Positions 4,978-58,460 of a stretch of 64,000 bases of DNA are shown in pieces (the stretch's first letter is position 1; the number at the start of each line of letters is the position of its first letter). The notes under the pieces are model-generated. The model had not been told where the DNA came from and made no database searches. It worked only from the letters and a program-made list of their open reading frames with translations. The position numbers and the translations under genes were made by a program. Source of the stretch: Serratia sp. Ag1 (lineage in GTDB: Bacteria > Pseudomonadota > Gammaproteobacteria > Enterobacterales > Enterobacteriaceae); NCBI RefSeq assembly GCF_000743355.1, contig NZ_JQEI01000016.1, positions 62,001 through 126,000 of the forward strand, written 5' to 3'.

Positions 4978-5325
4978 GTGAATGAAGGAACTGCTTCGGT
5001 AAATGAAATAGAACAGGCAGATATCAGCAGAGCGGCAACCATCACCACGCAGGTGCTGGCAGATATCACGGCAATGTTGAGCGCAAAGGATATTTTTACC
5101 AATGCTGTGCAACAGCAAATGCTGGAGTCACATATTCGCGCCATGGTATTGCGCTCGATAACCGGTGAACCTTTGCCGGAAGTGGATAAATCCCTGTTTG
5201 ACGAAATTTCTGCCGAGTCGATGCAAATGGCAGAACAGGTAGTGGATAAATTTGCCACATTGCCAATTGAAGAGGCTTACTTACTTTCCGTGCATTTTGA
5301 AGTAGCTAAAGATAATAACCAATAG
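4978..5325 (+). CDS. Small PRD-domain protein (EF_0829/AHA_3910-type)
   Basis: 115 residues, mostly helical, with no HTH and no membrane segment. The body from about residue 20 resembles one PTS regulation domain, with VVDKFATLPIEEAYLLSVHFEVAK near the end carrying the PRD-like His. It is the first gene of the cassette and 36 bp ahead of the SFCGS gene. The start is a GTG at 4978 preceded by GGGGTGA; no ATG fits. A free-standing PRD next to a PRD/EIIA activator suggests signalling by PTS phosphorylation, or a structural role with the transporter. The family association comes from memory of a TIGRFAM description; the function is not known to me. Confidence 0.7.
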   Translation: MNEGTASVNEIEQADISRAATITTQVLADITAMLSAKDIFTNAVQQQMLESHIRAMVLRSITGEPLPEVDKSLFDEISAESMQMAEQVVDKFATLPIEEAYLLSVHFEVAKDNNQ

Positions 5326-5361
5326 GTTTGATGGAATTACATTCAATCAGGAGAACATACC

Positions 5362-5727
5362 ATGGGTCAAATTACCGTAGTGATTGGCGATCGTTTGGGT
5401 AAAGGCCAGAAAGTCGGCCAAGGCATTGAAAATGCAGGCGCGAAAGCGATCGTTATTCCAGGCGTAGCGGCAGATATGAAGCTGGGTGACGTGATGAAAG
5501 CGGAAAGCGCACAGTTGGGCATTTCCTTCTGCGGCAGCGGCGGGGCCGGTGCCATTACTGCACAAACCAAGCATGGCTATAAAGCCAAATACGGTATGCG
5601 TTCGGTAGAGGAAGGTGTAACCGCCATTAACGAAGGCTACAACGTATTAGGCTTTGGCTTTATGGATAAAGAGGAGTTGGGCCAGCGACTGGTAGAAGCC
5701 TATATCAAAAAATATGGCAACGCGTAA
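5362..5727 (+). CDS. Glycine-rich SFCGS-family protein
   Basis: 121 residues, soluble. The hallmark GISFCGSGGAGAI lies at about residues 52-64: a single Cys followed by a Gly-rich loop, after a predicted beta strand. The C-terminus (GFGFMDKEELGQRLVEAYIKKY) is helical. AGGAGAACATACC precedes the ATG, and its stop overlaps the next start by one base. The family is known only from cassettes like this one. The Cys-Gly loop recalls the phosphorylated Cys loop of PTS IIB proteins, and the layout recalls E. coli YhfU (DUF2620) in the yhf operon; both comparisons are mine and unproven. Confidence 0.75.
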   Translation: MGQITVVIGDRLGKGQKVGQGIENAGAKAIVIPGVAADMKLGDVMKAESAQLGISFCGSGGAGAITAQTKHGYKAKYGMRSVEEGVTAINEGYNVLGFGFMDKEELGQRLVEAYIKKYGNA

Positions 5728-6023
5728 TGAAAGAACAATACACCACCTCGGTAACCGTGGAAGGTAAAGGCGACAGCAAAGCGAAAGCCTTTGCTTCCGC
5801 TTTGGCGAATGTACAGGGGGCAATATTAAAGTCCACCAGTAATATTCTGCTGCGCATTGAGCCACAAGACGTCAACGTATTAAAAGCGGAAGAGAAAATC
5901 ACTAAAGAGAAATTTCTGTTTTTCTTTCTGCCGCGTGAAAGAAAGAGTTATGCCGTCTCTTTGGAAATAACCGTAAACGTGACGATCATCAATACCGAAA
6001 AAGTGGTTTTTACCACCAAATAA
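5727..6023 (+). CDS. DUF4312-family protein
   Basis: 98 residues, no signal peptide or membrane segment. It reads as an alternating beta/alpha protein with a conserved-looking AKAFASALANVQ helix and a hydrophobic FLFFFLPRERKSYAVSLEITVNV strand region. The first A of its ATG is the last base of the upstream stop (TAATG), so the two are translationally coupled, which suggests a complex of fixed stoichiometry. No function is established; by context it is a cytoplasmic component of the DUF4310/4311 membrane system. Confidence 0.72.
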   Translation: MKEQYTTSVTVEGKGDSKAKAFASALANVQGAILKSTSNILLRIEPQDVNVLKAEEKITKEKFLFFFLPRERKSYAVSLEITVNVTIINTEKVVFTTK

Positions 6024-6078
6024 AACGTTATACCCAAAATCATCCAACGATGGGATATAGCATAAAAAGGGGATGTTA

Positions 6079-6855
6079 ATGTTCTTAATCATCTTATTTA
6101 AGTCGATTATTATCGGCGGGCTGGTAGGTGTCGGCGTTGGTGCCGGTGCCGCACGCATGTTCCATGCCCCGACGACACAGGGTATGGGTGCTTTCCGCAC
6201 CTTGGGCGAACTGAATTCCTGCGAAGGGGATCCGGCTTCTCACTTCTCATTCGGTCTGGGCTTCTTCTTTAACGCCTGGGCGTCTTCCGTGGCGGCGGGG
6301 GCTTTCACGCAGGACGTTGATCACCGCATTATCCCCAACTGGGGGGCAGCGGCCTTGATGATCAAGAACCGCAACGTGGCTGAAACGCTGCACGATCCGA
6401 AAAAAATGGCGATCGCTTGCGGCATCATCGGCATCCTGGTGGTGACTTTCCTCAATACTACCGCGTCGGCAGTGCCTGCGGCCTTGCAGGTGACGGCGAT
6501 CAAGGTATTGGTCCCGGCAGCTAACCTGCTGGTGAACACCGTGATGCCGGTGATCTTCTGGCTGGCGGCCATTGAAGCCGGTAAACGTTCCGGGTTCTGG
6601 GGCACCATCTTCGGCGGTTTGGCGCAACTGATTATGGGCAACGCGGTGCCTGGGCTGGTTCTGGGGATCCTGATCGGTAAAGGCGTAGAAGAGAGCGGCT
6701 GGAACAAAGTCACCAAGATCATGATGGCGGTGATTGTGCTGCTGTTCGTGCTGAGCGGCTTCTTCCGTGGCTTTGATATGAAACTTCTGGAGTCCTTCAG
6801 CCTTGGCGTGCCTGGCTGGCTGGATGCCATTCATAACACCCTGAGCGGTAAATAA
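6079..6855 (+). CDS. DUF4311-family integral membrane protein (putative transporter subunit)
   Basis: 258 residues with about six hydrophobic segments. The first (IILFKSIIIGGLVGVGVGAGA) is directly followed by a conserved-looking loop with HAPTTQGMGAFRTLGELN and NSCEGDPASHFSFGLGFFFNAW. Two later segments contain GNAVPGLVLG and FFRGF. The ATG at 6079 sits 6 bp after AAAAAGGGG; the in-frame ATG at 6073 touches that site. The protein pairs with DUF4310 just downstream. No conventional transporter signature is visible, so transport is inferred from topology and from the absence of any other permease in the operon. Confidence 0.75.
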   Translation: MFLIILFKSIIIGGLVGVGVGAGAARMFHAPTTQGMGAFRTLGELNSCEGDPASHFSFGLGFFFNAWASSVAAGAFTQDVDHRIIPNWGAAALMIKNRNVAETLHDPKKMAIACGIIGILVVTFLNTTASAVPAALQVTAIKVLVPAANLLVNTVMPVIFWLAAIEAGKRSGFWGTIFGGLAQLIMGNAVPGLVLGILIGKGVEESGWNKVTKIMMAVIVLLFVLSGFFRGFDMKLLESFSLGVPGWLDAIHNTLSGK

Positions 6856-6863
6856 GGCGCTGA

Positions 6864-7517
6864 ATGATGGAAACACAAACTCAAAAAGGCTTCTGGTACG
6901 CCGACTGGTCATTCCCGATTTTTGTCGGCCTGCTCTCGTCCGGCGTATTTGCCGGTACACATATGTATTACCTGTACGGCATTGGCGCGTTTAACGAAGT
7001 GGCGTTTGTCTCTATGTTGCGTGCCGGGATGGATACCGGGGTGTATGGCGCAGTGGCGGCGTTTGGGGCCAGCTTCCTGTTTGCCCGCATCATCGAAGGG
7101 TCGCTGGTGGGGATCCTGGATATCGGTGGGGCGATCCAGACCGGTGTCGGCCTTGGTGTTCCGGCGCTGTTGCTGGGGGCCGGGATCGTCTTCCCGGTGG
7201 CTAACTTTGCCGCAGCGCTGGTGACTGGCCTGGTAGTGGGGCTGGCGATTGGTTACCTGATTATTCTGGCGCGTAAATTCACCATCAACCAGAGCGACTC
7301 CACCTACGGCGCCGACGTGATGATGGGGGCCGGTAACTCCTCCGGGCGTTTCCTTGGGCCGTTGATCATCCTGTCTGCCATGGCTGCTTCGATTCCGATC
7401 GGGGTGGGCTCCCTGATCGGGGCATTGCTGTTCTATATCTGGGGCAAGCCGATTACCGGCGGTGCGATCCTTGGGGCGATGATCTTGGGGGCGATTTTCC
7501 CGGTAGCCATTGCTTAA
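6864..7517 (+). CDS. DUF4310-family integral membrane protein (putative transporter subunit)
   Basis: 217 residues with five or six Gly/Ala-rich hydrophobic segments (e.g. ALLLGAGIVFPVANFAAALV, GLVVGLAIGYLIILARKF) and a polar loop STYGADVMMGAGNSSGRFLGP. The start is the first of two ATGs, 6 bp after AAGG, and 8 bp after the DUF4311 stop. The dense Gly packing and paired small membrane proteins recall split IIC/IID PTS subunits or other two-subunit carriers, but no named family motif is seen. A strong hairpin follows at 7525. Confidence 0.75.
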   Translation: MMETQTQKGFWYADWSFPIFVGLLSSGVFAGTHMYYLYGIGAFNEVAFVSMLRAGMDTGVYGAVAAFGASFLFARIIEGSLVGILDIGGAIQTGVGLGVPALLLGAGIVFPVANFAAALVTGLVVGLAIGYLIILARKFTINQSDSTYGADVMMGAGNSSGRFLGPLIILSAMAASIPIGVGSLIGALLFYIWGKPITGGAILGAMILGAIFPVAIA

Positions 7518-7524
7518 TCAAGAG

Positions 7525-7553
7525 TTCACCCCGAGGAGAAACCTCGGGGTGAA
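7525..7553 (+). promoter_or_regulatory. Intra-operon stem-loop between transporter and enzyme genes
   Basis: TTCACCCCGAGG and CCTCGGGGTGAA form a perfect 12-bp stem with loop AGAAA. No T-run follows; AGGGAG comes next, upstream of the amidohydrolase. It is therefore more likely an mRNA processing, stability or partial attenuation element than a full terminator. Confidence 0.6.
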
Positions 7554-7568
7554 AGGGAGTCGTGAAGT

Positions 7569-8708
7569 ATGTATGACCTAATTATCCGCCGCGCCAGACT
7601 GGTGGACGGCACCTTGGCCGATGTGGCCGTTCAAGGCGGTAAAATTGCCGCCGTGGGGCAGGTGCCAGCAGACGCCTGTGCACATCAGCAGCGCGATCTG
7701 GCGGGGAATTATTACCTGAGCGCCGGTTGGATCGACTCGCACGTACACTGCTACCCCTCTTCGCCGATCTACCATGACGAACCGGATCGGGTTGGCGTTG
7801 CCAGCGGTGTCACCTCGGTGGTGGATGCGGGCAGCACTGGCACGGATGATATTGATGAGTTCTACGCCCTGACGCGCAGTAGCAAAACCAACGTTTTTGC
7901 CTTCCTGAATATCTCGCGCATCGGTCTGTTGCGGCAGAACGAGCTGGCGGAGATGGCGGATATCAATAAACAGGCCATCAGAAACGCCATTGATGACAAA
8001 CCGGGTTTTATTATCGGCATCAAGGCGCGTATGAGCAGCAGCGTGGTGGGCCAGAACGGCACCAGACCGTTGGTGCTGGCGAAAGAGATCCAGCAGGAAA
8101 ACCAGCAACTGCCGCTGATGGTGCATATCGGTAACAACCCGCCGGATCTGGATGAAATTGCCGATCTGCTGACTCAGGGCGACATTATTACCCACTGCTA
8201 TAACGGCAAGCCGAACCGCATCCTGACCCCCGCCGGTACGCTGCGTGAGTCGATCCAGCGTGCGTTAAAGCGCGGGGTGTTGCTGGATGTGGGCCACGGT
8301 ACGGCCAGCTTTAGCTTTGAGGTGGCCAGACAGGCGATTGCGCTGGGCATTTTGCCGCACACCATCAGTTCCGACATCTATTGCCGTAACCGCATCAGCG
8401 GGCCGGTCTTCAGCCTGGCGGCGGTGATGTCCAAATTCTTTACCGTCGGGCTCTCACTCGCGCAGGTGATTGATTGCGTCACGGCAAACGCCGCTGCGGC
8501 GCTGCGCCTGACCACCAAAGGGCGCTTGCAGCCGGGACTCGATGCCGATTTGACCATTTTTGAGCTTCGCACCGCGCCACAGGTATTTGCTGATTCCGCA
8601 GGGGAATCGGTCAATGGCGAACAATTGCTGGTGCCACTGGCCGCCGTGGTGGCCGGGGAACTCCTATTAACCGATGAAGGGAAAGCCGCCGATGTCTTCA
8701 GTCTATGA
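7569..8708 (+). CDS. Amidohydrolase/deacetylase-family metallohydrolase
   Basis: 379 residues of the amidohydrolase superfamily. Metal ligands are visible: H58 and H60 in DSHVH, K152 in GIKAR (carboxylated Lys), H186 in MVHIG, H209 in THCYNG and D269 in SSDIY, so a binuclear centre is likely. The N- and C-terminal beta parts (LIIRRARLVDG, GLDADLTIFEL) are typical of the urease-like fold. Related enzymes are annotated as deacetylases or dihydroorotase-like. Next to an ammonia-lyase acting on 2-amino sugar acids, removal of an N-acyl group is the most economical role. Its end overlaps the next start by 17 bp. Confidence 0.85.
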   Translation: MYDLIIRRARLVDGTLADVAVQGGKIAAVGQVPADACAHQQRDLAGNYYLSAGWIDSHVHCYPSSPIYHDEPDRVGVASGVTSVVDAGSTGTDDIDEFYALTRSSKTNVFAFLNISRIGLLRQNELAEMADINKQAIRNAIDDKPGFIIGIKARMSSSVVGQNGTRPLVLAKEIQQENQQLPLMVHIGNNPPDLDEIADLLTQGDIITHCYNGKPNRILTPAGTLRESIQRALKRGVLLDVGHGTASFSFEVARQAIALGILPHTISSDIYCRNRISGPVFSLAAVMSKFFTVGLSLAQVIDCVTANAAAALRLTTKGRLQPGLDADLTIFELRTAPQVFADSAGESVNGEQLLVPLAAVVAGELLLTDEGKAADVFSL

Positions 8709-9810
8709 AAAATATAATTTAAAACAGGTGATCAATACTTCCGGTCGCATGACCATTCTTGGCGTTTCCACGCCGCGCCAGGAGGTGATTGATGCCGTGG
8801 ATTACGGCCTGAATCATTACTTTGAAATCAAGGATCTGGTGAACAAGACCGGCGCCTATATTGCCGAACTGCTGAACGTGGAAGATGCGGTGATCGTTTC
8901 CTGCGCTTCTGCCGGTATCGCTCAATCGGTGGCGGCGGTGATCGTCAAAGATGACGCCAACCTGCTGGTCAACCTGCATTCGGCAGCGGTGAAGGAACCG
9001 CGTGAGATCGTGTTGCCACGGGGCCATAACGTTAACTTTGGTGCGCCGGTTGACACCATGATCGCCCTCGGCGGTGGCAAAGTGGTGGAAGCAGGCTACG
9101 CCAACGAGTGCTCCCCTGAACAGATTGAAGCCTGCATCACGCCGCAAACGGCGGCGATCATGTACGTTAAATCCCACCATTGCGTGCAGAAAAGCATTCT
9201 CTCCGTTGAACAGGCGGCGGTGGTGGCACGCAAGCACAACTTGCCGTTGATCGTCGATGCCGCAGCTGAAGAAGATCTGATGTGTTACTACCAGATGGGC
9301 GCTGATCTGGTGATCTACAGCGGTGCCAAGGCGATCGAAGGGCCAACCAGTGGCTTGGTGATCGGCAAGAAACAGTACGTTGCCTGGGTGAAGCAGCAGT
9401 CCAACGGCATTGGCCGCGCGATGAAGGTCGGCAAAGAGGGCATTCTGGGCCTGACGCAGGCGATCGAAAGCTATTTGCGGCTGGAGAAAACCAGCGGTGC
9501 GCAAATGGTAGAACGCATGACGCCATTTATCACTCATCTCAATACTCTGAACGGCGTCAGTGCCAAAACCGTGTGGGATAGCGCAGGGCGTGATATTGCC
9601 AGGGCTGAAATCACGTTTGATGAAGCGGTGTTGGGTATGTCAACCGTCGACATCGTGCAGCGGCTCAAAACCGGCGACATCGCCATCTATTTCCGGGGCT
9701 ATAAAGCTAACGAAGGCAAGATCGAAGTGGATGTGCGCAGCGTCAACGAGCAGCAGTTGATGACCGTTTTCACCTGTATTAAAAATCTGTTTACGGAGCA
9801 ACAAGCATGA
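8692..9810 (+). CDS. DgaE-type PLP-dependent ammonia-lyase
   Basis: 372 residues with the SelA/DgaE type fold I PLP architecture: INTSGRMT at the N-terminus, IVDAAAEEDL with the pyridine-binding Asp189, and IYSGAKAIEGP with Lys213 as the Schiff-base lysine. Salmonella DgaE converts D-glucosaminate 6-phosphate to 2-keto-3-deoxygluconate 6-phosphate and ammonia, and this protein is likely to do a similar alpha/beta elimination. I take the ATG at 8692; the ATG at 8674 has no separate ribosome site. The next gene overlaps by ATGA. Confidence 0.85.
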   Translation: MSSVYEKYNLKQVINTSGRMTILGVSTPRQEVIDAVDYGLNHYFEIKDLVNKTGAYIAELLNVEDAVIVSCASAGIAQSVAAVIVKDDANLLVNLHSAAVKEPREIVLPRGHNVNFGAPVDTMIALGGGKVVEAGYANECSPEQIEACITPQTAAIMYVKSHHCVQKSILSVEQAAVVARKHNLPLIVDAAAEEDLMCYYQMGADLVIYSGAKAIEGPTSGLVIGKKQYVAWVKQQSNGIGRAMKVGKEGILGLTQAIESYLRLEKTSGAQMVERMTPFITHLNTLNGVSAKTVWDSAGRDIARAEITFDEAVLGMSTVDIVQRLKTGDIAIYFRGYKANEGKIEVDVRSVNEQQLMTVFTCIKNLFTEQQA

Positions 9811-10547
9811 AGCTGAAGCCGAATTATTATAAAGATCGTGTGTGCCTGAACGTGTTGGCCGGTTCGAAAGATAACGCGCAAGAAATCTATGACGCGGCCC
9901 AGGGGCATGTGCTGGTGGGGGTGCTTTCCAAAAATTACCCGGACGTAGACAGCGCAGTCACCGATATGGCGCGTTATGCTCGCCTGATCGAGAACGCGCT
10001 TTCCGTTGGGTTGGGCGCAGGCGATCCGAAACAGTCAAATATGGTCAGCCAGATTGCCAAACAGGTGCAGCCGCAGCATGTGAACCAGGTGTTTACCGGC
10101 GTTGGTGCCAGCCGTGCGCTGCTGGGGCAAAGCGAAACCGTGGTCAACGGCCTGGTATCCCCGACTGGCCGGGTGGGTTGGGTGAAAATCTCCACCGGGC
10201 CGCTGAGTGCGCAGGCACCAGACGGTATCGTACCGGTTGAAACCGCGATCGCCCTGCTGAAAGACATGGGGGGCAGCTCCATCAAGTATTTCCCGATGGG
10301 GGGCCTGAAGCATAAAGACGAGTTCCAGTCTGTGGCGCGCGCCTGTGCTGAGCATGATTTCTTGCTGGAACCGACCGGCGGCATCGACCTGGAAAACTAC
10401 GAAGCCATTATGGAGATCGCGTTGGCTGCCGGGGTAAAGCAGGTGATCCCGCATATTTACAGCTCCATCATTGATTCTGCCAGCGGCAATACCCGTCCAC
10501 AGGATGTGAAAACCCTGTTGGCGATGACCAAGAAGCTGGTGGGTTAA
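9807..10547 (+). CDS. KDPG-aldolase-type enzyme (DgaF/EF_0839-like)
   Basis: 246 residues, a TIM-barrel aldolase of the DgaF type. SSIKYFPMGG carries the probable Schiff-base Lys160, and LEPTGGIDLENY forms the phosphate-binding end. It should split a 2-keto-3-deoxy-6-phospho-aldonate into pyruvate and glyceraldehyde 3-phosphate. It follows the ammonia-lyase with a 4-bp overlap, the same gene pair as dgaE-dgaF. This implies a phosphorylated intermediate although no kinase or classical PTS gene lies in the operon. Confidence 0.83.
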   Translation: MKLKPNYYKDRVCLNVLAGSKDNAQEIYDAAQGHVLVGVLSKNYPDVDSAVTDMARYARLIENALSVGLGAGDPKQSNMVSQIAKQVQPQHVNQVFTGVGASRALLGQSETVVNGLVSPTGRVGWVKISTGPLSAQAPDGIVPVETAIALLKDMGGSSIKYFPMGGLKHKDEFQSVARACAEHDFLLEPTGGIDLENYEAIMEIALAAGVKQVIPHIYSSIIDSASGNTRPQDVKTLLAMTKKLVG

Positions 10548-10686
10548 CACCTAACGTGTAGAGAGTGGGTACGGAACGGTAGTGAGGTGCAGGAGTTGAT
10601 TTGTGGCACGTTCAGCCCCTTTTTCCTGTGGGAGAGGGGGGAGGAACAGGAGCTAACGTCTTTTCTAATCGGTTAAAAGGATAACT

Positions 10687-11865
10687 ATGCGAAACTCTTT
10701 ACGAATCACAACGCTATCCCTGGCACTGTTGGCGGTTGTCAGTCCGGCGCTGCAGGCTGAGAAGATCATGAAATCCCCATCGTCACAGTTTGCCTATATC
10801 GGCACCTACAATCCTAACGGAGAGGGCGTTTACCGGGTACGGGTGGATGCAACAAGCGGTGCGCTGAGTGACAGAACGCTGGTGAGCAATCTGCCGAATC
10901 CGGCACAACTGGTGGTCGATGCCAAAGGACAGACGCTGTATGTGGCCAGCGAAGTGGCAAATTTTAACGGTACCCAGCATGGTGGTATTGTCGCGTATCG
11001 CATCAACCCGCAAGACGGCAGCCTGACGCAGCTTAATCAGGTTGATTCGCAAGGCGCAGGGCCGGTTTACCTTTCCCTGTTACCTGACGGGCGGCACTTG
11101 CTGGTGGCGAACTATATCAGCGGCAGCGTGGCGGCCTTTCCGATCGATGCTGAGGGTAAGCTAGGAGCTGCCAGTTCGGTGCAACAGAGTGCTGGCCCGG
11201 CAGGTGCGGTAGAGGGCAGTTTTGCTATCAGCGATCACAACGGCCCGCATGCACATATGATTGCCAGCGATCCGAGCGGTAAATTTGTGTTTTCTACCGA
11301 TCTGGGGTTGGATCGCATCTACCAGTGGCGTTTTGACAATGGCAGCGGCAAGCTGACACCGAACGATCCGCCATGGATTAGTGCTTCTTCCGCCGGAGCC
11401 GGGCCGCGCCACTTTGTGTTCCATCCAGACGGCAAAACGGTGTTGTTGATCAATGAAGAGGCTTCGACGCTGACCCGTTATCGTTTCGACAGCCAGAACG
11501 GCACGCTAAAGCAGCTCCAGGTTATTTCAAGCCTACCCGCTGATTACCGGGGCACCAGCTTTGCCGCTGGGCTGGCGCTGAGTGCCGAGGGGAAAAACCT
11601 GTACGTTGCCAACCGCTTGCATAACAGCATTGCGCAGTTCAGCGTAGGGGATAATGGCGTACTGCAACCGGTCGCAGAGGTGTGGACGCATGGGGATTAT
11701 CCACGCACCCTGACTCTGGATCCGAGTGGCCGCTACCTGTACGCGTTGAATCAGCGCAGCGATAACATCACCCGTTTCAGCGTGGACCAGCAGAGCGGTA
11801 AACTCAGCTTTGTTGCTGGTTATATGCCGGTGGGCAGCCCTTCACAAATGGTGTTTATGCCATAA
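10687..11865 (+). CDS. Exported lactonase-family beta-propeller (6-phosphogluconolactonase-like)
   Basis: 392 residues. A Sec signal peptide (MRNSLRITTLSLALLAVVSPALQA) is followed by seven-bladed propeller repeats with motifs YIGTYNPNGEGVY, YVASE, LLVANYISGSV, HAHMI, GAGPRHFVFHPDGK, LYVANRLHNSI and YLYALNQRSDNI. The E. coli cytoplasmic Pgl propeller lacks such a signal, so this is a periplasmic relative. It lies 139 bp after the aldolase, between the operon and its regulator; opening a sugar lactone before uptake would fit, but this is inference. AAAAGGATAACT precedes the ATG. Confidence 0.82.
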   Translation: MRNSLRITTLSLALLAVVSPALQAEKIMKSPSSQFAYIGTYNPNGEGVYRVRVDATSGALSDRTLVSNLPNPAQLVVDAKGQTLYVASEVANFNGTQHGGIVAYRINPQDGSLTQLNQVDSQGAGPVYLSLLPDGRHLLVANYISGSVAAFPIDAEGKLGAASSVQQSAGPAGAVEGSFAISDHNGPHAHMIASDPSGKFVFSTDLGLDRIYQWRFDNGSGKLTPNDPPWISASSAGAGPRHFVFHPDGKTVLLINEEASTLTRYRFDSQNGTLKQLQVISSLPADYRGTSFAAGLALSAEGKNLYVANRLHNSIAQFSVGDNGVLQPVAEVWTHGDYPRTLTLDPSGRYLYALNQRSDNITRFSVDQQSGKLSFVAGYMPVGSPSQMVFMP

Positions 11866-11916
11866 CCCGTGGCCCGTCCGACGCGATCGGGCGGGCACAT
11901 TAATAACGGAAAGAGC

Positions 11917-13833
11917 ATGGTACGATTCCCCTACCCACGTTTGGCTTATCTGTTTGATGCTTTGCAGTCTGAGACTTTGCCTCAGGAAGAACTGGCGAAG
12001 CGTTTTGCCGTGTCTACCCGAACCGTGCGTGCGGATATCACTGCCCTGAATGACATCCTGGAAAAATACGGTGCGCGGTTTGTGCATAACCGGGGGGCGG
12101 GTTATCGCCTGCAGGTGGAGGACGCGGCGCTGTTCAGCGCCTTACAGCATCAGGAACGCAGAAAACAGGCCACCCCGCGCAGTGGGCAGGAACGGGTGCA
12201 TTACCTGTTGATTCGCTTTTTGACCTCAGCCTTTTCTCTGAAGCTGGAAGATTTAGCTGACGAATGGTTTGTCAGCCGTGGCACGTTGCAAAACGACATG
12301 GCTGAGGTGAGGGAGCGTTTGGCGCACTATCAGTTAACCATTGAAACCAAACCGCGTTATGGCATGAAACTGTTTGGTTCAGAAATGGCGATCCGAGCCT
12401 GCCTGACCGATCTGCTGTTTCAACTGCATCTTGCCGACCCAGAAAATCCGCTGCTGAACAATGAGATCCTCCAGCAGCCGCAGGTGGCGAGCTTGGCTGG
12501 GCTGCTGCATCCGTTGTTGTCGCAGTATGCTATCCGGCTAACGGATGAAGGCGAGCAATACCTGATTTTCTATTGCGCGGTTGCGTTGCAGCGCATTATC
12601 GACGGTTATCCGCTGCCGGAGTTTGAGGTTGAAGACGGTGATGATTCAGTGCGCAAGGTTTCCAGCCGTTTGGCAAGCGAACTGCGTACATCGGCAGGTA
12701 AAGAGATCTCGGTAGCGGAAGAAGCCTATTTGCGGGTGAATATTGCCGCCCGGCGGGTACAGGAAATTCAGCCGACGGAAATCAATGCTGATGATGAAGA
12801 TGCGCTGGTGGATTACATTCTGTCTTACATCAATACCCACTATAACTACAATCTGCAGGGCGACAAACAGCTACGTGCCGATCTGCTCACCCATATCAAG
12901 ACCATGATTACGCGGGTGAAATACCAGATTACGATCCCGAATCCCCTGCTGGCTAACATCAAGCAGCATTACCCGATGGCTTACGATGTGACGCTGGCGG
13001 CGGTATCCAGTTGGGGGAAATACACCCCTTATACTCTGAGTGAGAATGAAATCGGCTACCTGGTGCTGCATATCGGCGTCGGCCTGGAGCGCCACTACAA
13101 TATCGGTTATGAACGCCATCCGCAGGTGATGCTGGTGTGTGATACCGGCAATTCGACGGTGCGGATGATTCAGGCGCAGATTGCCCGCAAGTACCCGCAA
13201 CTGGTGATGACGCGCATTGTTTCGCTGCGGGATTACGAGATCCTCAGCCAGATCGAAGAAGATTTCGTGATTTCCAACGCGCGTATCAGCGAGAAAAACA
13301 AGCCGGTGGTGGTGATGTCCCCCTTCCCGACTGAATATCAGCTCGAACAGTTGGGCAAGCTGGTGCTGGTGGATCGCACCAAGCCGTATATGTTGGAGAA
13401 ATTCTTCGACGCCAATCATTTCATGATCGTCAACGAACCGCTGACGCAGGAACAACTGTTTAAAAAAGTCTGCACTCAGTTGGAGCAGGAAGATTATGTA
13501 GGCAGCGATTTTTACCCTTCGGTGGTTGAGCGTGAAGCGATCGTTTCCACCTTGCTGGGCGAGGGCATTGCCTTGCCGCACTCGCTGGGGTTGCTGGCGA
13601 AAAAAACCGTGGTCGTGACGCTATTGGCCCCGCAGGGCATAGCCTGGGGAGAAGGGGAGATCGCCCATGTGATCTTCCTGCTGGCGATCAGTAAAAGCGA
13701 TTACGAAGAAGCGATGGCGATTTACGATCTGTTCGTCACCTTTGTGCGTGAACGTTCGATGAGCCGCCTGCTGAGCAGCGATAATTTCGACAGCTTCAAG
13801 GCGCTGGCGCTCGACTGCCTGAGCCGGATCTAG
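11917..13833 (+). CDS. MtlR/BglG-type transcriptional activator (HTH-PRD-PRD-EIIB-EIIA)
   Basis: 638 residues. Domains in order: DeoR/Mga-like HTH (about 1-66, with VSTRTVRADITALN), a second HTH (about 88-145, VSRGTLQNDMAEVR), two PRDs (about 170-385), a GatB-like EIIB region with LVCDTGNST (about 395-480) and a C-terminal EIIA domain with GIALPHSLG (about 495-638). This is the DNA-binding MtlR class rather than an RNA-binding BglG. Phosphorylation of its PRD, Cys and His sites by the PTS would gate activity. It is probably the activator of the cassette from 4978. The ATG at 11917 follows ACGGAAAGAGC; an upstream GTG is less likely. Confidence 0.87.
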   Translation: MVRFPYPRLAYLFDALQSETLPQEELAKRFAVSTRTVRADITALNDILEKYGARFVHNRGAGYRLQVEDAALFSALQHQERRKQATPRSGQERVHYLLIRFLTSAFSLKLEDLADEWFVSRGTLQNDMAEVRERLAHYQLTIETKPRYGMKLFGSEMAIRACLTDLLFQLHLADPENPLLNNEILQQPQVASLAGLLHPLLSQYAIRLTDEGEQYLIFYCAVALQRIIDGYPLPEFEVEDGDDSVRKVSSRLASELRTSAGKEISVAEEAYLRVNIAARRVQEIQPTEINADDEDALVDYILSYINTHYNYNLQGDKQLRADLLTHIKTMITRVKYQITIPNPLLANIKQHYPMAYDVTLAAVSSWGKYTPYTLSENEIGYLVLHIGVGLERHYNIGYERHPQVMLVCDTGNSTVRMIQAQIARKYPQLVMTRIVSLRDYEILSQIEEDFVISNARISEKNKPVVVMSPFPTEYQLEQLGKLVLVDRTKPYMLEKFFDANHFMIVNEPLTQEQLFKKVCTQLEQEDYVGSDFYPSVVEREAIVSTLLGEGIALPHSLGLLAKKTVVVTLLAPQGIAWGEGEIAHVIFLLAISKSDYEEAMAIYDLFVTFVRERSMSRLLSSDNFDSFKALALDCLSRI

Positions 13834-13884: not shown

Positions 13885-14703
13885 TTATGACTGGCTATTG
13901 ATGGCCGCTACGCCCAGCCAGACCCCCAACAGAGTATCCGCGCCGGAGAAATAGCCGGTTTCTAACAGTTCACCGATCGCGGCCGGTAATTCATCGTGCC
14001 ACAGCAAAGCCCGAGCCAGCCGCTGTAAGTGGGTAGAGAAAATGCCCTTTTCGGCGAACTGAAGATAGTGAGCACTTACCAGGGTGGTTAACTCGCCCAA
14101 CGGCTGGCTGGCAGCAAAGAACGCGGGTAAACGGGCAATATCCACACGGCTATCAAGATGGGCGCTCAAGAGCATGCCGAGCACGGTATCGTCATTGCTT
14201 GGTGTCAGCCCTGGCCCTTTGCCCAGCACCGAACTCCAGTCAACGGCTTGCCCTTGCAGCCAGGCGACAAACTGCTGTTGCATCTCGTGGATCTCGGTAC
14301 ATAACGGCTGTCTGACAAGCAAAGCCAGGCGGCCAAACAAACCGGTATGGATCGGTTCATCGGCCAAGAGGGTGGCCAACGGTGAAAGCGGGATCTCATC
14401 GCGCAGGTTTAAGCGCAGATCCAGACGGTTATCCTGACGATGGATACAGATGTCTGCCAATTCGATACCCGCAGGCGAGAGCTGGCCGGGTTCTTCTCCC
14501 AATAGGCGGTCAAAGATCTTATCAAAATCACCACTGGCTATTTCCCAGCCCATTGGGCTGATCCCGCGTCCTTCGCGGTGGAGCGTCAACAGCCGCTCGC
14601 TTTGTGAGAGGAAATTGATGGCATGGTTGAAACGCCCCACACAACGTAGCGGGCCGTAATCCTGTGTGGCATGGTGGCTGACGGTTAACGCGGTAATTTC
14701 CAT
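13885..14703 (-). CDS. allH: AllH (YlbF), oxamate carbamoyltransferase component, DUF2877
   Basis: 272 residues, matching E. coli YlbF/AllH in length and in the DUF2877 core (GKGPGLTPSNDD, GLTPSNDDTVLGMLL). It is the third member of the fdrA-ylbE-ylbF set, recently assigned in E. coli to oxamate carbamoyltransferase, which forms carbamoyl phosphate and oxamate from oxalurate at the end of anaerobic allantoin use. AGGAGGATCTCT before the ATG at 14703 fixes the start. In E. coli the carbamate kinase gene follows; here the next gene is unrelated and convergent. Confidence 0.88.
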   Translation of the reverse strand: MEITALTVSHHATQDYGPLRCVGRFNHAINFLSQSERLLTLHREGRGISPMGWEIASGDFDKIFDRLLGEEPGQLSPAGIELADICIHRQDNRLDLRLNLRDEIPLSPLATLLADEPIHTGLFGRLALLVRQPLCTEIHEMQQQFVAWLQGQAVDWSSVLGKGPGLTPSNDDTVLGMLLSAHLDSRVDIARLPAFFAASQPLGELTTLVSAHYLQFAEKGIFSTHLQRLARALLWHDELPAAIGELLETGYFSGADTLLGVWLGVAAINSQS

Positions 14704-14748
14704 TAGAGATCCTCCTGTGCCTGGGGGGTGCCCAGGCACACACCTGAT

Positions 14749-16014
14749 TTACGCGTTGATTCCCAGTTTTTCTGCCAAGGCTTCGATGGCTTTCTCAAAA
14801 CAACCCAGTGGAGCGCGGACGGTGCCAGCCCCAATCTGGCCAATCCCGGCTTCCCGGTGAGCGATCCCGGTGTTGATTAATGGCGTGATGCCTGTTTCCA
14901 CCACCCGCCGGGCATCCAACCCCAGGCAGGCCCCTTGGAAATCCCAGGTTGGGATCTGCAGCATCATGTTGTGTTCCAGATAAATCTCTGTCATTTCATC
15001 CGAGATATCGGTGGCGGCATTCATCCCGCCAGCAGCACCGACAAAGCGGGTGACGCCGGGCGCGGCCACCATCGCTGCCCCACCAATACCAAAGGTTTCT
15101 GTAATGGCGCTGTCGCCGATATCCGGGTTGGCATCGGCCTGGCTATAGCCGGAGAAGAACAAGCCTTCTGGCGTATTGACCGGCGCGGTAAACCATTGCT
15201 CGCCCATTCCGCTGATTTTGATGCCAAAGTTTTTGCCATTGCGGGTCATGACCGTCACGATCGTGCCCTGTTTGATCTCCGCCCCGGCATCCATTGCGGC
15301 CTTGCAGTAGGCCATTGCCAGGTTCAGGAAAAACTGATCGGTGATGCTGAGGAATTGCATGACTTTGGCCAGCTCGTTTTTATCCTGCTCCAGCAGGCTG
15401 ATCTTGGGAGCCAGTTGGCGCATCAACAGTGCCGAGGCGGCAATATTGCGCTGGTGGAATTCATCCCCCATGGTGATGGCCTGTGCCATCACGGCGGTGA
15501 GATCGAGCCCCCCTTCGAAAGTGCTTAGCACTGCTTTCAGCACCGGAGCCAACGAGTCACGCATCCAGCGCAAACGCTCCTGCACATCTGGCCCATAGGC
15601 ACCAAAGCGCATGACTTTGCCGATACCTTCGTTCATGTTGCAGTAGGCATGGTTACCATGAACGCTGTTTTTCACCACAATTAACGGCATATTCGCCGAC
15701 GTTATGCCCCCCATCGGCCCGACCGCGCTAACGTTGTGGCAAGGGATAAATTCGATTTCGCCCTGTTCCAGCAAAGCCAGTGCCTGCTGTTCGTTGTCGG
15801 CCCATTGCTCAAACAGACAGGCTCCGATACAGGCCCCGCGAACCGGACCGCTCATTTCCTGCCAGGTAACCGGTGGCCCGGCATGCAGCAGCTTTCTGCC
15901 CTGAGCCAACTGGGGGATAAGTTTTTTGGCTAAATCAACATCTTGCCAATGTGGGCGTGCTTCGCGGATCCTGGCAATAACGGCAGCATTTGCTTGTTCA
16001 ATAGATGCGTACAT
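14749..16014 (-). CDS. allG: AllG (YlbE), oxamate carbamoyltransferase component, DUF1116
   Basis: 421 residues of the DUF1116/YlbE family, near the E. coli length. Motifs include GPPVTWQEMSGPVRGACIG, CHNVSAVGPMGGI, VHGNHAYCNMNEG and GAAGGMNAATDISDEM. AAGGGATTGAT before the ATG fixes the start. It lies 9 bp after fdrA and 45 bp before allH in one operon. Its gene partners define its role; the individual catalytic contribution is not visible from sequence. Confidence 0.9.
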   Translation of the reverse strand: MYASIEQANAAVIARIREARPHWQDVDLAKKLIPQLAQGRKLLHAGPPVTWQEMSGPVRGACIGACLFEQWADNEQQALALLEQGEIEFIPCHNVSAVGPMGGITSANMPLIVVKNSVHGNHAYCNMNEGIGKVMRFGAYGPDVQERLRWMRDSLAPVLKAVLSTFEGGLDLTAVMAQAITMGDEFHQRNIAASALLMRQLAPKISLLEQDKNELAKVMQFLSITDQFFLNLAMAYCKAAMDAGAEIKQGTIVTVMTRNGKNFGIKISGMGEQWFTAPVNTPEGLFFSGYSQADANPDIGDSAITETFGIGGAAMVAAPGVTRFVGAAGGMNAATDISDEMTEIYLEHNMMLQIPTWDFQGACLGLDARRVVETGITPLINTGIAHREAGIGQIGAGTVRAPLGCFEKAIEALAEKLGINA

Positions 16015-16023
16015 ATCAATCCC

Positions 16024-17691
16024 TTACTTTAAATTTTTCAGTATGTTAGCCAATCGTTGATTGCCACCGGCAACCGGAGCCCATTGGTAGTGGACCACTG
16101 AAATATCATTGGTTTGCAGATCATCAGCAAAGCTGCGCAAACCCGCGTTAATCACGGAAACGCCGTCCAGCATTGCGGGGGCTGATGCGGTTACGCCAAC
16201 CAGCGGGGGAGCAATGAGCTGGCTGGCCAGCAGCGTTGCTTCCGGCAGCGAGTTCATGACGGCAATACCTGCTGCACTGAGGGTGGCAATCTGTTTGGAG
16301 CGCTGCTGTGGATCCTGTTCAGTGCCGGTCACCGTGGCAATAACGGCCAGCGGCTGCGCCGCACCGCGCTTTTCACGCAGGCGTTTAACCTCATCAGCCA
16401 GCGAACTGGCGGGATCTTCCTGCGCGCCGTAGCCGATCACCACATCCAACAGCAACACGCCAACCTGTGGTTGTTGGGCAAGACGGGCAATTTCCTGATT
16501 GCGGGTAGAAGGGTCGATCATCGGGTGGGGCTTACCCTGAGTATAAAAATCATCCCCCAGATCGATAATGCGGTGCCCCTCGGTGTTGAGCATTGAGCCC
16601 TGTTGATGCTGGCGGTCGGCTTCAAGGCCTAACTCAGCAGCCAGCAGCATGGCGCATTCTGCTGCCAGCGTACCGCCAGCATACAAACCGCAAATCTTGC
16701 CGCCGCACACTGCGGGTTGTTGCGCCGCCATTTGCTGGATATGTGCCAACATTGCGGCAAGGCGGGCTGCCTCATCCAGCGTGCTGGCAAAAGTGATATT
16801 GCCCTCTTGCCTCACCGGGTTTTGCGCGCCAAGGAACAGCGCGACTACCGGTTTGCCGAGGGTTTTCATTTCTGCAATGACCTGCTTGCGCACGGTTTCT
16901 GCCGGGGGTTTGGAGACAAACGCCAGCACTTGGCTCTGTGGATCTGCTGCCAGCATGCGCAGTGCGCTGATGGCGCTGATTCCCCCCACGGCAGCCGTTA
17001 AGTCACGCCCGCCCAAGCCGATCGCGTGAGAAACGCCTTGCCTGGCCAGAGTAATTTGCGATATCAGTTCCTGGATCCCGGTTCCTGAAGCGCCAATGAC
17101 GCCAATCATCCCTTTGGGAGCCAGATTGGCAAAGGCCAGCGGCGCTCCGGCGATATTGGCCGTGCCGCAGTCAGGCCCCATCACGATCAGGCCTTTGCTG
17201 CGCGCCTTGGTTTTTAACGCGACTTCCTGCTCAACGCTGACGTTATCGGAAAACATCATTACGTTGCAGCCATCATCCAGTGCTTGCTCGGCCAGCTCGG
17301 CGGCATATTCACCGGCAATCGAGATCAGCACCATATTGGCATCAGGCAGTTTCTGCCGCGCCATGCGCCAACTACGTGCTTTGAGCAGGCGTTTACCGCC
17401 CTGTTGCCCTTGAGCAAGCGCTTTCAGCGCCGCGTCTAACGCCTCACTGATTTGTTCAGTGATTGTGCCGTCGGCAACTGCTGTTTTGATCGCTACGCAA
17501 ATGTCATTCGGGGTGGCCTCGCTGAATTGCGGGTGCCAGAAGCCGGTCGCTTCAAGCAAGGATTTATTGGCCGGGGTCCCCATCATGACCGAGATTTCTT
17601 CAACATTCGGTGATTCACTGAGTTTACGGGAAATGAGCATCAGGCTGACCGAGTCCTGAAAGCTCCCTTTTTTTATAAAAGCATGGATCAT
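16024..17691 (-). CDS. fdrA: FdrA/AllF, acyl-CoA synthetase-like oxamate carbamoyltransferase subunit
   Basis: 555 residues, the length of E. coli FdrA. It is built like succinyl-CoA ligase alpha chain, with a CoA-binding-type Rossmann domain (GPDCGTANIAG, GVIGASGTGIQELISQI, HAIGLGGRDL) and a ligase-like C-terminal half. The start at 17691 follows AAGGATATCACT. It heads the fdrA-allG-allH operon, divergent from allD over 494 bp, as in E. coli. Originally found as a suppressor of dominant-negative ftsH alleles; the carbamoyltransferase role is recent knowledge. Confidence 0.9.
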   Translation of the reverse strand: MIHAFIKKGSFQDSVSLMLISRKLSESPNVEEISVMMGTPANKSLLEATGFWHPQFSEATPNDICVAIKTAVADGTITEQISEALDAALKALAQGQQGGKRLLKARSWRMARQKLPDANMVLISIAGEYAAELAEQALDDGCNVMMFSDNVSVEQEVALKTKARSKGLIVMGPDCGTANIAGAPLAFANLAPKGMIGVIGASGTGIQELISQITLARQGVSHAIGLGGRDLTAAVGGISAISALRMLAADPQSQVLAFVSKPPAETVRKQVIAEMKTLGKPVVALFLGAQNPVRQEGNITFASTLDEAARLAAMLAHIQQMAAQQPAVCGGKICGLYAGGTLAAECAMLLAAELGLEADRQHQQGSMLNTEGHRIIDLGDDFYTQGKPHPMIDPSTRNQEIARLAQQPQVGVLLLDVVIGYGAQEDPASSLADEVKRLREKRGAAQPLAVIATVTGTEQDPQQRSKQIATLSAAGIAVMNSLPEATLLASQLIAPPLVGVTASAPAMLDGVSVINAGLRSFADDLQTNDISVVHYQWAPVAGGNQRLANILKNLK

Positions 17692-17818
17692 AGTGATATC
17701 CTTAAAACAGCATGTGAACTTCGCAAGCATTAATCATGAGCGGTAACCACAGGTATTTGGGGTATAGTTATTCGTTTCGTCTTCTTGTTTGCCAAGCTAC
17801 AAATAAAACACTGCATTG

Positions 17819-17838
17819 AAGGTGAGTATCATCACACT
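17819..17838. promoter_or_regulatory. Candidate CRP-binding site
   Basis: GGTGA-GTATCA-TCACA matches the CRP half-sites (TGTGA-N6-TCACA) at 9 of 10 positions and is flanked by AA and CT. It is about 135 bp upstream of fdrA and 350 bp upstream of allD. Confidence 0.45.
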
Positions 17839-18033
17839 TTATTTATTGTGAGATAAAATCATTAAATATTGCTTCAATTAATAAAGAAAATAATAAGATT
17901 GCACAACTTTGTTAGAAAAGTTTTAATAATGCCAAACCCATTCAATAAAAATTTAAGTCAATAAAGTAATATCCACCTGGATCACATTATTTTCTGCTGA
18001 GCTTTATACATTACCCTCCAGAGGTGGTTTTAA

Positions 18034-18160
18034 TATACCCGTCATACTTCAAGTTGCTTGGGTGTTGGCTGCCCTCATTCACCCCAGTCACTTACTTGAG
18101 TAAGCTCCTGGGGATTCACTCGGTTGCCGCCTACAAGCAACTTGAATTATTTTGGGTATA
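18034..18160. repeat. Full-length 127-bp palindromic repeat (copy 2), in the allD leader
   Basis: It has the same length and nearly the same sequence as 468-594 (TATACCCGTCATACTTC ... AATTATTTTGGGTATA), with the same internal CCCCAG/CTGGGG arms. It ends 25 bp before the allD start, so it separates upstream control sites from the gene and probably lies in the mRNA leader. Confidence 0.88.
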
Positions 18161-18185
18161 AACCGTAGTAACAAAAGGACTGTCT

Positions 18186-19235
18186 ATGAAAGTCTCTAAA
18201 CAGCAATTGCATCAACTCATTCAAAATAAAATTCATGCTGCTGGTCTGAGCGAACAGCATGCAGGCATTGTCGCCGACGTTTTGGTTCACGCCGATGCCC
18301 GGGGCATCCATTCTCATGGCGCTGTGCGCGTGGAGTATTACTCTGAGCGCATCAGCAAGGGGGGAACCAACAATAATCCCCACTTTACGTTTGAAAAAAC
18401 CGGTCCGTGCAGTGCTATTTTTGATGGAGATAACGGCGCCGGGCATGTTGCTGCCAAGCTGAGTATGGATCACGCGATCGAAATGGCTAAGGAAAATGGC
18501 GTTGCGGTGGTGGGTGTGCGCCGTATTGGCCACAGCGGCGCGCTGTCTTACTTTGTTCAGCAGGCCGCCCGTGCAGGCATGATCGGGATCTCTCTCTGCC
18601 AATCGGATCCGATGGTGGTTCCTTATGGCGGTGCGGAAGTGTATTACGGCACCAACCCGATCGCTTTCTCTGCGCCAGCGGAAGGTGATGACATCGTGAC
18701 CTTTGATATGGCGACCACCGTGCAGGCATGGGGTAAAGTGCTGGATGCCCGTTCGCGCAACGCACCCATTCCAGATACCTGGGCCGTTGACAGTGAAGGT
18801 AAACATACCACCGATCCTTTTGCCGTGAGCGGGCTGTTGCCGATTGCCGGGCCAAAAGGCTATGGCCTGATGATGATGGTTGATATTCTGTCTGGCGTCT
18901 TGCTTGGGCTACCGTTTGGTAAACACGTCAGCTCGATGTATCACGATCTGAGCGCTGGCCGGGAATTGGGCCAACTGCATATCGTGCTCAACCCAGGTAA
19001 TTTCACCAGTGCCAGCACCTTCCGTAAGCACGTCAGCCAGGTAATGAAAGAATTAAATGAAATCAAACCCGCTCCTGGTGTGGAAAAAGTGCTCTATCCT
19101 GGGCAAGGCAGCCATATGCGAGAAATACAGAACGAGAAGAATGGCATCGAAATTGTCGATGAAATTTATCAATATCTGATTTCCGATGATATTTACCAGC
19201 GTTCATACGATCATAAAGATCCCTTTGCCAGTTAA
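18186..19235 (+). CDS. allD: AllD, ureidoglycolate dehydrogenase (NAD+)
   Basis: 349 residues, the length of E. coli AllD, of the malate/lactate dehydrogenase 2 family. HADARGIHSHGAVRVEYY carries the conserved active-site His segment, and GHSGALSYFVQQAA and ATTVQAWGKV are family blocks. It oxidises S-ureidoglycolate to oxalurate, feeding AllFGH. ACAAAAGGACTGTCT precedes the ATG. First gene of allDCE, expected to be activated by AllS. Confidence 0.95.
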   Translation: MKVSKQQLHQLIQNKIHAAGLSEQHAGIVADVLVHADARGIHSHGAVRVEYYSERISKGGTNNNPHFTFEKTGPCSAIFDGDNGAGHVAAKLSMDHAIEMAKENGVAVVGVRRIGHSGALSYFVQQAARAGMIGISLCQSDPMVVPYGGAEVYYGTNPIAFSAPAEGDDIVTFDMATTVQAWGKVLDARSRNAPIPDTWAVDSEGKHTTDPFAVSGLLPIAGPKGYGLMMMVDILSGVLLGLPFGKHVSSMYHDLSAGRELGQLHIVLNPGNFTSASTFRKHVSQVMKELNEIKPAPGVEKVLYPGQGSHMREIQNEKNGIEIVDEIYQYLISDDIYQRSYDHKDPFAS

Positions 19236-19281
19236 TTCAGCAGATCATTAAAAAGGGCGTTTGAAATATCAGCGCCCTGCC

Positions 19282-19303
19282 TACCCCAAATAATTCGAGT
19301 TGC
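19282..19303. repeat. Half copy of the palindromic repeat before allC
   Basis: TACCCCAAATAATTCGAGTTGC corresponds to one terminal arm of the 127-bp repeat. The opposite arm is missing, so it is a remnant in the allD-allC spacer. Confidence 0.5.
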
Positions 19304-19329
19304 TGAAAATTGAAAGTGGACAGATAAAG

Positions 19330-57406: not shown

Positions 57407-58246
57407 TTAGCCCAGCAGAGACATCACCATCCCAGACATGCTGTTAGATTGCTTGAGCATGGACATGCTGGTCTGTGACAGCATCTGGTTACGGGTCATG
57501 GAAGAGGCTTCTTTCGCGAAGTCTGCATCCTGGATGTTACCCAGCGCCAGTTCGGTGTTGTCTTTCATGTTGGCCAGGTTGGCCGCTGTGTGACCCAAAC
57601 GGTTAATGTTGGCACCCAGGCTTGAGCGCAACGTACCGACGTCACCCAGTGCGGTTTCGAGCCCGTCGATCACATCGCTAAATGCCGCGCCATCTTTCAG
57701 CGTAAACGCACCCACATCACCCATTGAGGTGCCAACTGCGGTCATTTCGGTACGCAGATCCACACTCATCACTTCAGCAGAGCTGGCACCAATCTGGAAG
57801 TTCATGGCACCGCCAGCCAACTTACCGCCTTCCAGCAGTTTCTCACCGGCAAACTTGGTGTTGCCCATGATGTTTTTCAGTTCTGAGTTCAGTTGCTGGA
57901 ACTCAGAATCCAGCGCGTCACGATCTTTTGTCGAGTTGGTGTCGTTCGCTGCCTGCGTTGCCAGATCTTTCATGCGGTACATGATGTTGCTCACTTCATC
58001 AAACGCACCTTCAGCCGTTTGCAGCATGGCGTTGGCATCGGCGATGTTGCGTTGGGCAACGGCCATGCCGTTGGTTTGCCCTTGCAGACGAGAAGCGATT
58101 TGCAGACCCGCAGCATCATCAGCCGCAGAGTTGATACGCTTGCCGGTACCCAGACGCTCCATAGAGGTTGAGAGCATGCTGTTTGCTTTGTTCAGCGAGT
58201 TAGTAGAAGCCATTGAAGAGGCGTTGGTGAAAATAGATAAGCTCAT
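57407..58246 (-). CDS. lafA: Lateral flagellin, copy 1
   Basis: 279 residues, a short flagellin with only the D0/D1 coiled ends (MSLSIFTNASSMASTNSLNKAN, RLGTGKRINSAADDAAGLQIASRL; C-terminal NINRLGHTAANLANMKDNTELALGNIQDADFAKEAS, MLSQTSMSMLKQSNSM) and a tiny central domain. It differs from copy 2 at 11 residues, all between 154 and 190. The ribosome site is poor (TAGGAAATTTTTAC), weaker than in copy 2, so expression may differ. Exported by the Flag-2 type III system with LafC. Confidence 0.95.
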   Translation of the reverse strand: MSLSIFTNASSMASTNSLNKANSMLSTSMERLGTGKRINSAADDAAGLQIASRLQGQTNGMAVAQRNIADANAMLQTAEGAFDEVSNIMYRMKDLATQAANDTNSTKDRDALDSEFQQLNSELKNIMGNTKFAGEKLLEGGKLAGGAMNFQIGASSAEVMSVDLRTEMTAVGTSMGDVGAFTLKDGAAFSDVIDGLETALGDVGTLRSSLGANINRLGHTAANLANMKDNTELALGNIQDADFAKEASSMTRNQMLSQTSMSMLKQSNSMSGMVMSLLG

Positions 58247-58460
58247 GTAAAAATTTCCTAGTCAGTCAAAGTGTCAACCCAGTGGCTGTTTATAAAGGCA
58301 CTCAATAATCAAATTAATTGCCTGGCAGAAACATCCTCAGGGTTCTATTTTTTAAACGAAAACATCAGCGAGCGCCTGGCGGGCGTATAACTCGCCAAGG
58401 CACCGCAATTTCTTCAGGTTAAGCGGCAGGCACCTAACCTCTGGTGTGATATGCCAGGGT

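Follow-up and report, generated by a model that had tools for sequence, protein, structure and literature searches.

In Salmonella, D-glucosaminate is metabolized through the dga operon, which, in the portion of the source available, comprises a phosphotransferase system (PTS) permease, DgaABCD, together with the ammonia-lyase DgaE and the aldolase DgaF (PMC9529869). The ong pathway of Pseudoalteromonas degrades N-acetylglucosaminate (GlcNAc1A) by deacetylation and deamination towards 2-keto-3-deoxy-6-phosphogluconate (KDPG) and, as described in an excerpt of its report, relies on a D-aminoacylase-type enzyme (OngB), a D-amino-acid-deaminase-type enzyme (OngC), a sodium symporter and the kinase KdgK, with no phosphorylation on entry (PMC9537276). 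Here, a ten-gene cassette of Serratia sp. Ag1 is described, located at positions 4978 to 13833 of a 64,000-nucleotide stretch of DNA (contig NZ_JQEI01000016.1, positions 62,001 to 126,000), hereafter called the window. It is a real and widely conserved catabolic cassette, probably for a 6-phosphorylated N-acyl aminosugar acid.

The cassette resembles the dga operon in that its lyase belongs to the same family and its aldolase exceeds the DgaF equivalog cut-off, and the same end products are expected. Unlike the dga operon, it contains no recognised EII component, it has a metallohydrolase and five uptake-module proteins, and its lyase falls under the DgaE equivalog cut-off. It is like the ong pathway in its expected sequence of deacylation, deamination and formation of KDPG, although its enzymes fall in other named families than OngB, OngC, KdgK and OngIT, a comparison made by family, without a direct search for the ong genes. 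Seven proteins encoded by adjacent genes exceeded the cut-offs of all seven models TIGR03577 to TIGR03583, which places the locus in the EF_0829/AHA_3910 cassette group. The optional exported lactonase distinguishes it from the hypothetical models named after EF_0829-EF_0839 and AHA_3910-AHA_3917.

Gene content of the cassette

All ten open reading frames (ORFs) that the preliminary description had placed on one strand were found at their coordinates, and the curated NCBIfam cut-offs were passed for TIGR03582, TIGR03577, TIGR03578, TIGR03580, TIGR03579, TIGR03583, TIGR03581, NF047796 and TIGR01437. Pfam assignments were concordant (SFCGS, DUF4312, DUF4311, DUF4310, Amidohydro_1, KDGP_aldolase, Lactonase and, for the activator, PRD, EIIA_2, Mga and HTH_11); for the stand-alone PRD protein Pfam gave no match at E 0.001. 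The features are as follows.

4978-5325, + strand: stand-alone PRD protein of the EF_0829/AHA_3910 family, candidate histidine phosphocarrier (H52, H106, each in 85 of 85 rows); TIGR03582, 131 bits against a cut-off of 69
5362-5727, + strand: SFCGS protein, predicted RpiB fold, candidate cysteine (C57) phosphocarrier; TIGR03577
5727-6023, + strand: DUF4312 protein, small uptake-module component; PF14189/TIGR03578
6073-6855, + strand: DUF4311 membrane protein, candidate permease subunit; PF14188/TIGR03580; median identity 92% over 80 named loci
6864-7517, + strand: DUF4310 membrane protein, candidate permease subunit; PF14187/TIGR03579; median identity 91% over 79 named loci
7525-7553, + strand: strong RNA stem-loop at the boundary of uptake and enzyme genes; -23.9 kcal/mol, z -4.8 (dinucleotide shuffles)
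7569-8708, + strand: amidohydrolase-superfamily metallohydrolase of the EF_0837 family, proposed N-deacylase (H58, H60, K152, H186, H209, D269); TIGR03583, 543 bits against 432
8674-9810, + strand: DgaE-family ammonia-lyase dependent on pyridoxal 5'-phosphate (PLP), with PLP lysine K219 and putative phosphate arginines R310, R341 and R355; TIGR01437, 597 bits against 385
9807-10547, + strand: DgaF-type KDPG aldolase; NF047796, 392 bits against 300; TIGR03581, 402 against 222
10687-11865, + strand: optional seven-bladed lactonase-type propeller with a signal-like N-terminus (judged by eye); PF10282, 347 bits
11869-13833, + strand: MtlR-type PRD activator with HTH_11, Mga HTH, PRD and EIIA_2 domains (Pfam)

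Successive genes are separated by 36, -1, 49, 8, 51, -35, -4, 139 and 3 nt. The earlier description of the junctions from 5727 onward as mostly tight or overlapping holds for five of the eight (-1, 8, -35, -4 and 3 nt), but the other three are gaps of 49, 51 and 139 nt. The lyase and the activator may in truth start slightly downstream of the listed ORF starts, as judged by eye.

Conservation and distribution

Genome contigs were scanned with DUF4311, and the best 80 of 500 confirmed stretches were kept as named loci; since only the best relatives were retained, this sample is weighted towards close kin. Going by record titles, every locus is from Enterobacterales except one from Xenophilus (L095), and the closest DUF4311 matches among them are from Serratia (98%). 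Nine core genes were found in a single order and on a single strand in 77 of the 80, and the remaining three (L026, L074 and L088) lie at contig ends. These counts rest on tblastn and refer to presence, not intactness; in S. rubidaea L022, for example, several genes are in pieces. The recurring nine-gene order exceeds chance, and the linkage on which the preliminary description depended was thus borne out in other genomes. Conservation is highest in the two membrane proteins and lowest in the PRD, DUF4312 and metallohydrolase proteins (median identity 64, 68 and 68%).

Ten further relatives, taken as the lowest-scoring family matches to the DUF4310 model, all contained the nine genes; the activator lies upstream in L143, and dgaF is in two pieces in L145. 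One candidate, G420, was left out of this set (49% complete, DUF4310 in three pieces). The DUF4310 model matched 69 of 149 genomes of the window's family and 12 of 398 genomes of its phylum, all 12 in the same family and one of them the window's own genome. With the same model, none of 385 genomes in a class taken as Alphaproteobacteria exceeded the cut-off (two weak matches fell below it); none matched among 10 genomes drawn from the phylum or among 48 of one class, where the controls gave no match either. No relative of the cassette was found in viral contigs, and E. coli genomes gave no megablast match to 5570 bases of query.

Several observations accompany this survey. A Lactococcus lactis control genome gave an SFCGS match below the cut-off. 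Near the cassettes of three divergent relatives (L139-L141), a DcuC-like carrier and an M20-type peptidase were seen by eye. Possibly decaying cassettes occur in L145 (4699-6684, dgaF in two separated pieces), L017 (10738-11346, an internal deletion) and L014, the Enterococcus faecalis record (near 18570-19320, dgaF matched in two pieces). Aeromonas caviae L017 was considered as a natural variant lacking the first two enzymes and was rejected, as the approximately 650 bases between DUF4311 and the activator look like an internal deletion.

Proposed catabolic route

The reactions and the phosphoryl-transfer route that we infer would run as follows. The substrate would be an N-acylated 2-amino-2-deoxy sugar acid, of which N-acetyl-D-glucosaminate or one of its epimers is the likeliest; it would be imported and phosphorylated at C6 on entry by a PTS-like permease, composed of the PRD protein (acting through histidine), SFCGS (through cysteine), DUF4312 and DUF4311/DUF4310 and fed by EI and HPr. 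The exported lactonase, where present, would first open lactone forms. Inside the cell, the metallohydrolase would remove the acyl group, the DgaE-type lyase would form KDPG by elimination of ammonia, and the DgaF-type aldolase would split this product into pyruvate and glyceraldehyde 3-phosphate, while the MtlR-type activator would sense the phosphorylation state of the PTS. This whole scheme, from PTS-like import with C6 phosphorylation to deacylation, deamination and aldol cleavage, is favoured tentatively, with confidence a little short of even. PTS dependence of uptake, taken by itself, falls marginally on the likely side.

The enzymes are consistent with the order deacylation, ammonia elimination and aldol cleavage that was proposed at the outset, as far as order can be read from families. 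In the metallohydrolase, each of the six residues listed above is at least 97% conserved over 93 rows; they presumably coordinate the metals in a binuclear site of the amidohydrolase type. Its solved relatives are 8wzy, 2ics and 2ogj, of which 8wzy is 95.7% identical to the Klebsiella pneumoniae copy in L016. They are labelled dihydroorotase, adenine deaminase or amidase, labels that are not taken as function. The enzyme may also be compared with the cog3964 metallohydrolases, Atu3266 and its relatives, given these solved relatives labelled dihydroorotase and adenine deaminase; Atu3266, which we take to be linked to 2ogj, is reportedly active on acetylated hydroxy acids.

The lyase is 43% identical to 7lc0 over 357 aligned residues. 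Over 81 rows, K219, H169, R310, R341 and R355 were present in all and H168 in 80. The three arginines correspond to R301, R332 and R346, which form a phosphate cluster in a manual docking model on 7LCE, as given in the available part of PMC9529869. The lyase thus looks built for a phosphorylated substrate. The window's genome holds one PF07071 gene and one gene over the TIGR01437 cut-off, both within the cassette; the second TIGR01437 match reached 80 of the 385 bits required.

Uptake module and proposed phosphoryl transfer

The uptake module is headed by a PRD protein that shows no second domain in Pfam or NCBIfam. C57 of SFCGS was kept in 95 of 95 rows, and an RpiB fold was predicted for this protein: rows 1-21 of the fold list are RpiB, LacAB or annotated RpiB, and the list holds no EIIB family, which does not exclude one. 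SFCGS matched an RpiB profile at E 6.8e-5 and TIGR02133, below the cut-off, at E 3e-4. The histidine of the HNN motif and the C-terminal arginine arm are important for RpiB function. Both are missing from SFCGS in its alignment to the RpiB profile. In the activator, C424 and H401 were found in 82 of 82 rows and the EIIA histidine H571 in 81 of 82.

Comparison of DUF4311 with DUF4310 by hhalign gave a probability of 0.7 percent, on shallow alignments (effective number of sequences, Neff, 1.4-2.2). A dodecin-like nature of DUF4312, guessed from its pattern, was rejected since a solved-structure profile search gave no dodecin; apart from RecA fusions, at E 0.00026 added up over weak repeats, all rows stood at E 0.23 or higher. 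Literature searches confined to one library listed no title on the uptake proteins.

On the plasmid of Bartonella HY406 (L134), the cassette ends with a fused protein that carries full HPr and EI domains (PF00381, PF05524, PF00391 and PF02896). The listing of this plasmid, which itself describes its gene table as incomplete, was read fully and contains no other PTS-annotated gene beyond the PRD protein and activator of the cassette. In the part of the HY761 plasmid that was read, the layout matches, and a gene annotated ptsP, as long as that of HY406, occupies the corresponding position; the two plasmids were counted as one event because several protein accessions are identical. A type VI secretion cluster adjoins the cassette of HY406.

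The invariant arginine cluster of the lyase and the HPr-EI protein of Bartonella make phosphorylation of the substrate likely, where the preliminary description had said only 'perhaps phosphorylated'. Phosphorylation on entry would be the simplest route, since the lyase looks adapted to phosphate and the cassette is without a kinase (none among the ten genes in Pfam and NCBIfam).

The Enterococcus faecalis record contains the nine genes, with the activator first, together with a lactose/cellobiose-family PTS EIIC, a small ORF, a MupG-type protein and a PfkB-type sugar kinase. Its dgaF was matched in two pieces and is absent from the gene table of the record. Published accounts of these genes, in the parts available, list EF0838 as a selenium transferase in a transposon table (PMC7701990) and under selenocompound metabolism in a KEGG table (PMC11135667), and report a duplication of dgaEF in almost every one of 40 strains (PMC7396535). 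With the kinase as query, no match at E 1e-4 was obtained in any other of 97 loci, where other kinase families were not sought.

Comparison with the yhf operon

The yhf operon of E. coli (yhfSTU php yhfWXYZ) is similar in containing a stand-alone PRD protein, a small protein with weak RpiB similarity, a membrane-type protein, a putative hydrolase and PLP-type proteins. It differs in its enzyme families, and its regulator is annotated only as a putative DNA-binding protein. The resemblance of the PRD, small and membrane-type proteins counts in favour of PTS-like uptake by the cassette. YhfY matched TIGR03582 at E 1.6e-6 (28 bits, below the 69-bit cut-off), and YhfU matched the RpiB profile weakly (E 1.6e-3). 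A YhfU profile found SFCGS at E 0.034 with the database size set to 20000, and hhalign of SFCGS with YhfU gave 7.1 percent (P 0.005) on alignments as shallow as those above (Neff 1.4-2.2). The window's genome also carries a yhf operon (L148) whose genes follow the order of E. coli; its YhfT is divergent, at 32% to the E. coli protein.

It is possible, although doubtful, that the five uptake-module proteins constitute a PTS permease class outside the known EII families, in which the PRD protein would act as EIIA, the RpiB-fold SFCGS with a phosphate on Cys57 as EIIB, and DUF4311 and DUF4310 as two new membrane subunits, with YhfY-YhfU-YhfT as a second branch.

Alternative explanations

A number of findings weigh against PTS-like import with C6 phosphorylation. 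No EIIA, EIIB or EIIC/EIID domain was detected in the PRD, SFCGS, DUF4312, DUF4311 and DUF4310 proteins (Pfam/NCBIfam, E 0.001), the structure prediction for DUF4311 (mean predicted local distance difference test, pLDDT, 43) gave no usable model, and YhfT was rejected as a relative of DUF4311 or DUF4310 (hhalign 0.2 and 0.5 percent; shallow, Neff 1.4-2.2). The assignment of the phosphate arginines depends on manual docking, and the arginines do not single out this lyase because, by eye, they are kept in the more distant 8t7j. R226, placed near the substrate carboxylate in the docking model, is lysine in 42 rows and arginine in 39; the lyase reached 375 of the 600 bits of the strict DgaE equivalog; and the rows that show conservation are largely of related Enterobacterales and do not count as independent. 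The HPr-EI protein, observed in a single lineage, could serve the PRD activator alone. Since the genome holds 12 PfkB-type matches, phosphorylation could happen elsewhere, and the kinase beside the E. faecalis copy is closest to kinases of the 2-keto-3-deoxygluconate (KDG)/KDPG pathways, below their cut-offs. The lack of a detected EII domain, the PfkB-type matches and the E. faecalis kinase would fit an ordinary non-PTS carrier formed by DUF4311/DUF4310, which would import the unmodified acid; a kinase encoded elsewhere would phosphorylate the acid or, once it has been deaminated, KDG, and the PRD proteins and HPr-EI would be regulatory only. The marine N-acetylglucosaminate pathway, as outlined in the accessible text of PMC9537276, likewise uses an unphosphorylated substrate, with KdgK acting last. 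Such a carrier is nevertheless rather unlikely: the phosphate arginines of the lyase are invariant, the ten genes include no kinase and that of E. faecalis had no counterpart in the other loci searched for that family, and the uptake module is headed by a stand-alone PRD protein with both histidines invariant and no second domain.

The similarity of SFCGS to RpiB, in fold, profile and an invariant cysteine in the RpiB loop, could instead mean that it is a small isomerase or epimerase adding a catalytic step. This role is improbable for a protein without the HNN histidine and arginine arm, and no isomerase is required on the way from aminosugar acid to KDPG. The substrate, in turn, might be specifically GlcNAc1A as the oxidised end unit released from chitin by lytic polysaccharide monooxygenases (LPMOs), with the optional lactonase opening their lactone product. 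The same net chemistry, yielding acetate, ammonia and KDPG, is described for Pseudoalteromonas in the available part of PMC9537276; oxidised products occur as both 1,5-lactone and acid (PMC12017989, in excerpt); and two Aeromonas strains, according to a portion of PMC11653859, have LPMO, KdgK and KdgA but distant or no OngB/OngC, leaving room for another route. Of 149 genomes of the family, treated as one draw because the listed genomes agree, 27 held LPMO_10 and 69 the cassette; both were present in 14, counted by hand, against 12.5 expected, and the window's genome has no LPMO_10 match. Chitin LPMOs as the source of the substrate were rejected for want of this co-occurrence, and GlcNAc1A as the specific substrate is considered unlikely.

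Optional lactonase and RNA hairpin

The lactonase was found in 33 of the 80 named loci. Because of this limited occurrence, lactone opening is not a core step, and the earlier proposal that a lactone is opened outside the cell is weakened as a general part of the pathway. The N-termini of 34 lactonase copies look signal-like by eye.

The spacer between the DUF4310 and metallohydrolase genes contains the strong hairpin listed above. In 14 such spacers compared with dinucleotide shuffles, including that of the window, z was -1.96 or lower in 11, about -1.85 in two and +2.1 in L041; the loci were chosen for spread, and two of 15 were left out as their spacers are 11 nt long. In a wider survey of 77 spacers in the named loci, in which only spacers longer than 20 nt were folded, 59 of the 72 folded had z below -2 with mononucleotide shuffles (mean -3.7). 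Mean z was -0.4 for the PRD-SFCGS spacer, -0.7 for DUF4312-DUF4311 and about -2 for the spacers flanking the lactonase. The hairpin sequences (L018-L097) are unrelated between genera, and some from Pantoea look repeat-derived by eye. The hairpin may uncouple the mRNA levels of the uptake genes from those of the enzyme genes. A scan for promoters and simple terminators gave no excess over shuffles (5 vs 6.7 and 13 vs 10.4).

Neighbouring features of the window

At 558-1389, a barnase-like ribonuclease (PF00545) is followed by an overlapping small ORF that resembles barstar by eye. Downstream of the cassette, 13885-20562 looks like part of an allantoin cluster, with matches to AllH and AllG (oxamate carbamoyltransferase) and a CoA-ligase-type protein on the opposite strand, followed by Ldh_2 and an M20 hydrolase on the + strand. 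Two tandem, near-identical flagellin genes lie at 57407-59300 in a flagellar-type cluster (by eye).

Implications

This assignment would give a role open to testing to four families of unknown function (SFCGS, DUF4312, DUF4311 and DUF4310) and to seven hypothetical-equivalog models. If uptake is PTS-dependent as proposed, enterobacteria that have been studied in depth would hold a phosphorylating transporter of a new class, and the same mechanism could be considered for the as yet unexplained yhf operon of E. coli K-12. Should the PTS reading be false, the substrate class and the order of the enzymes would still be narrow enough for a direct test.

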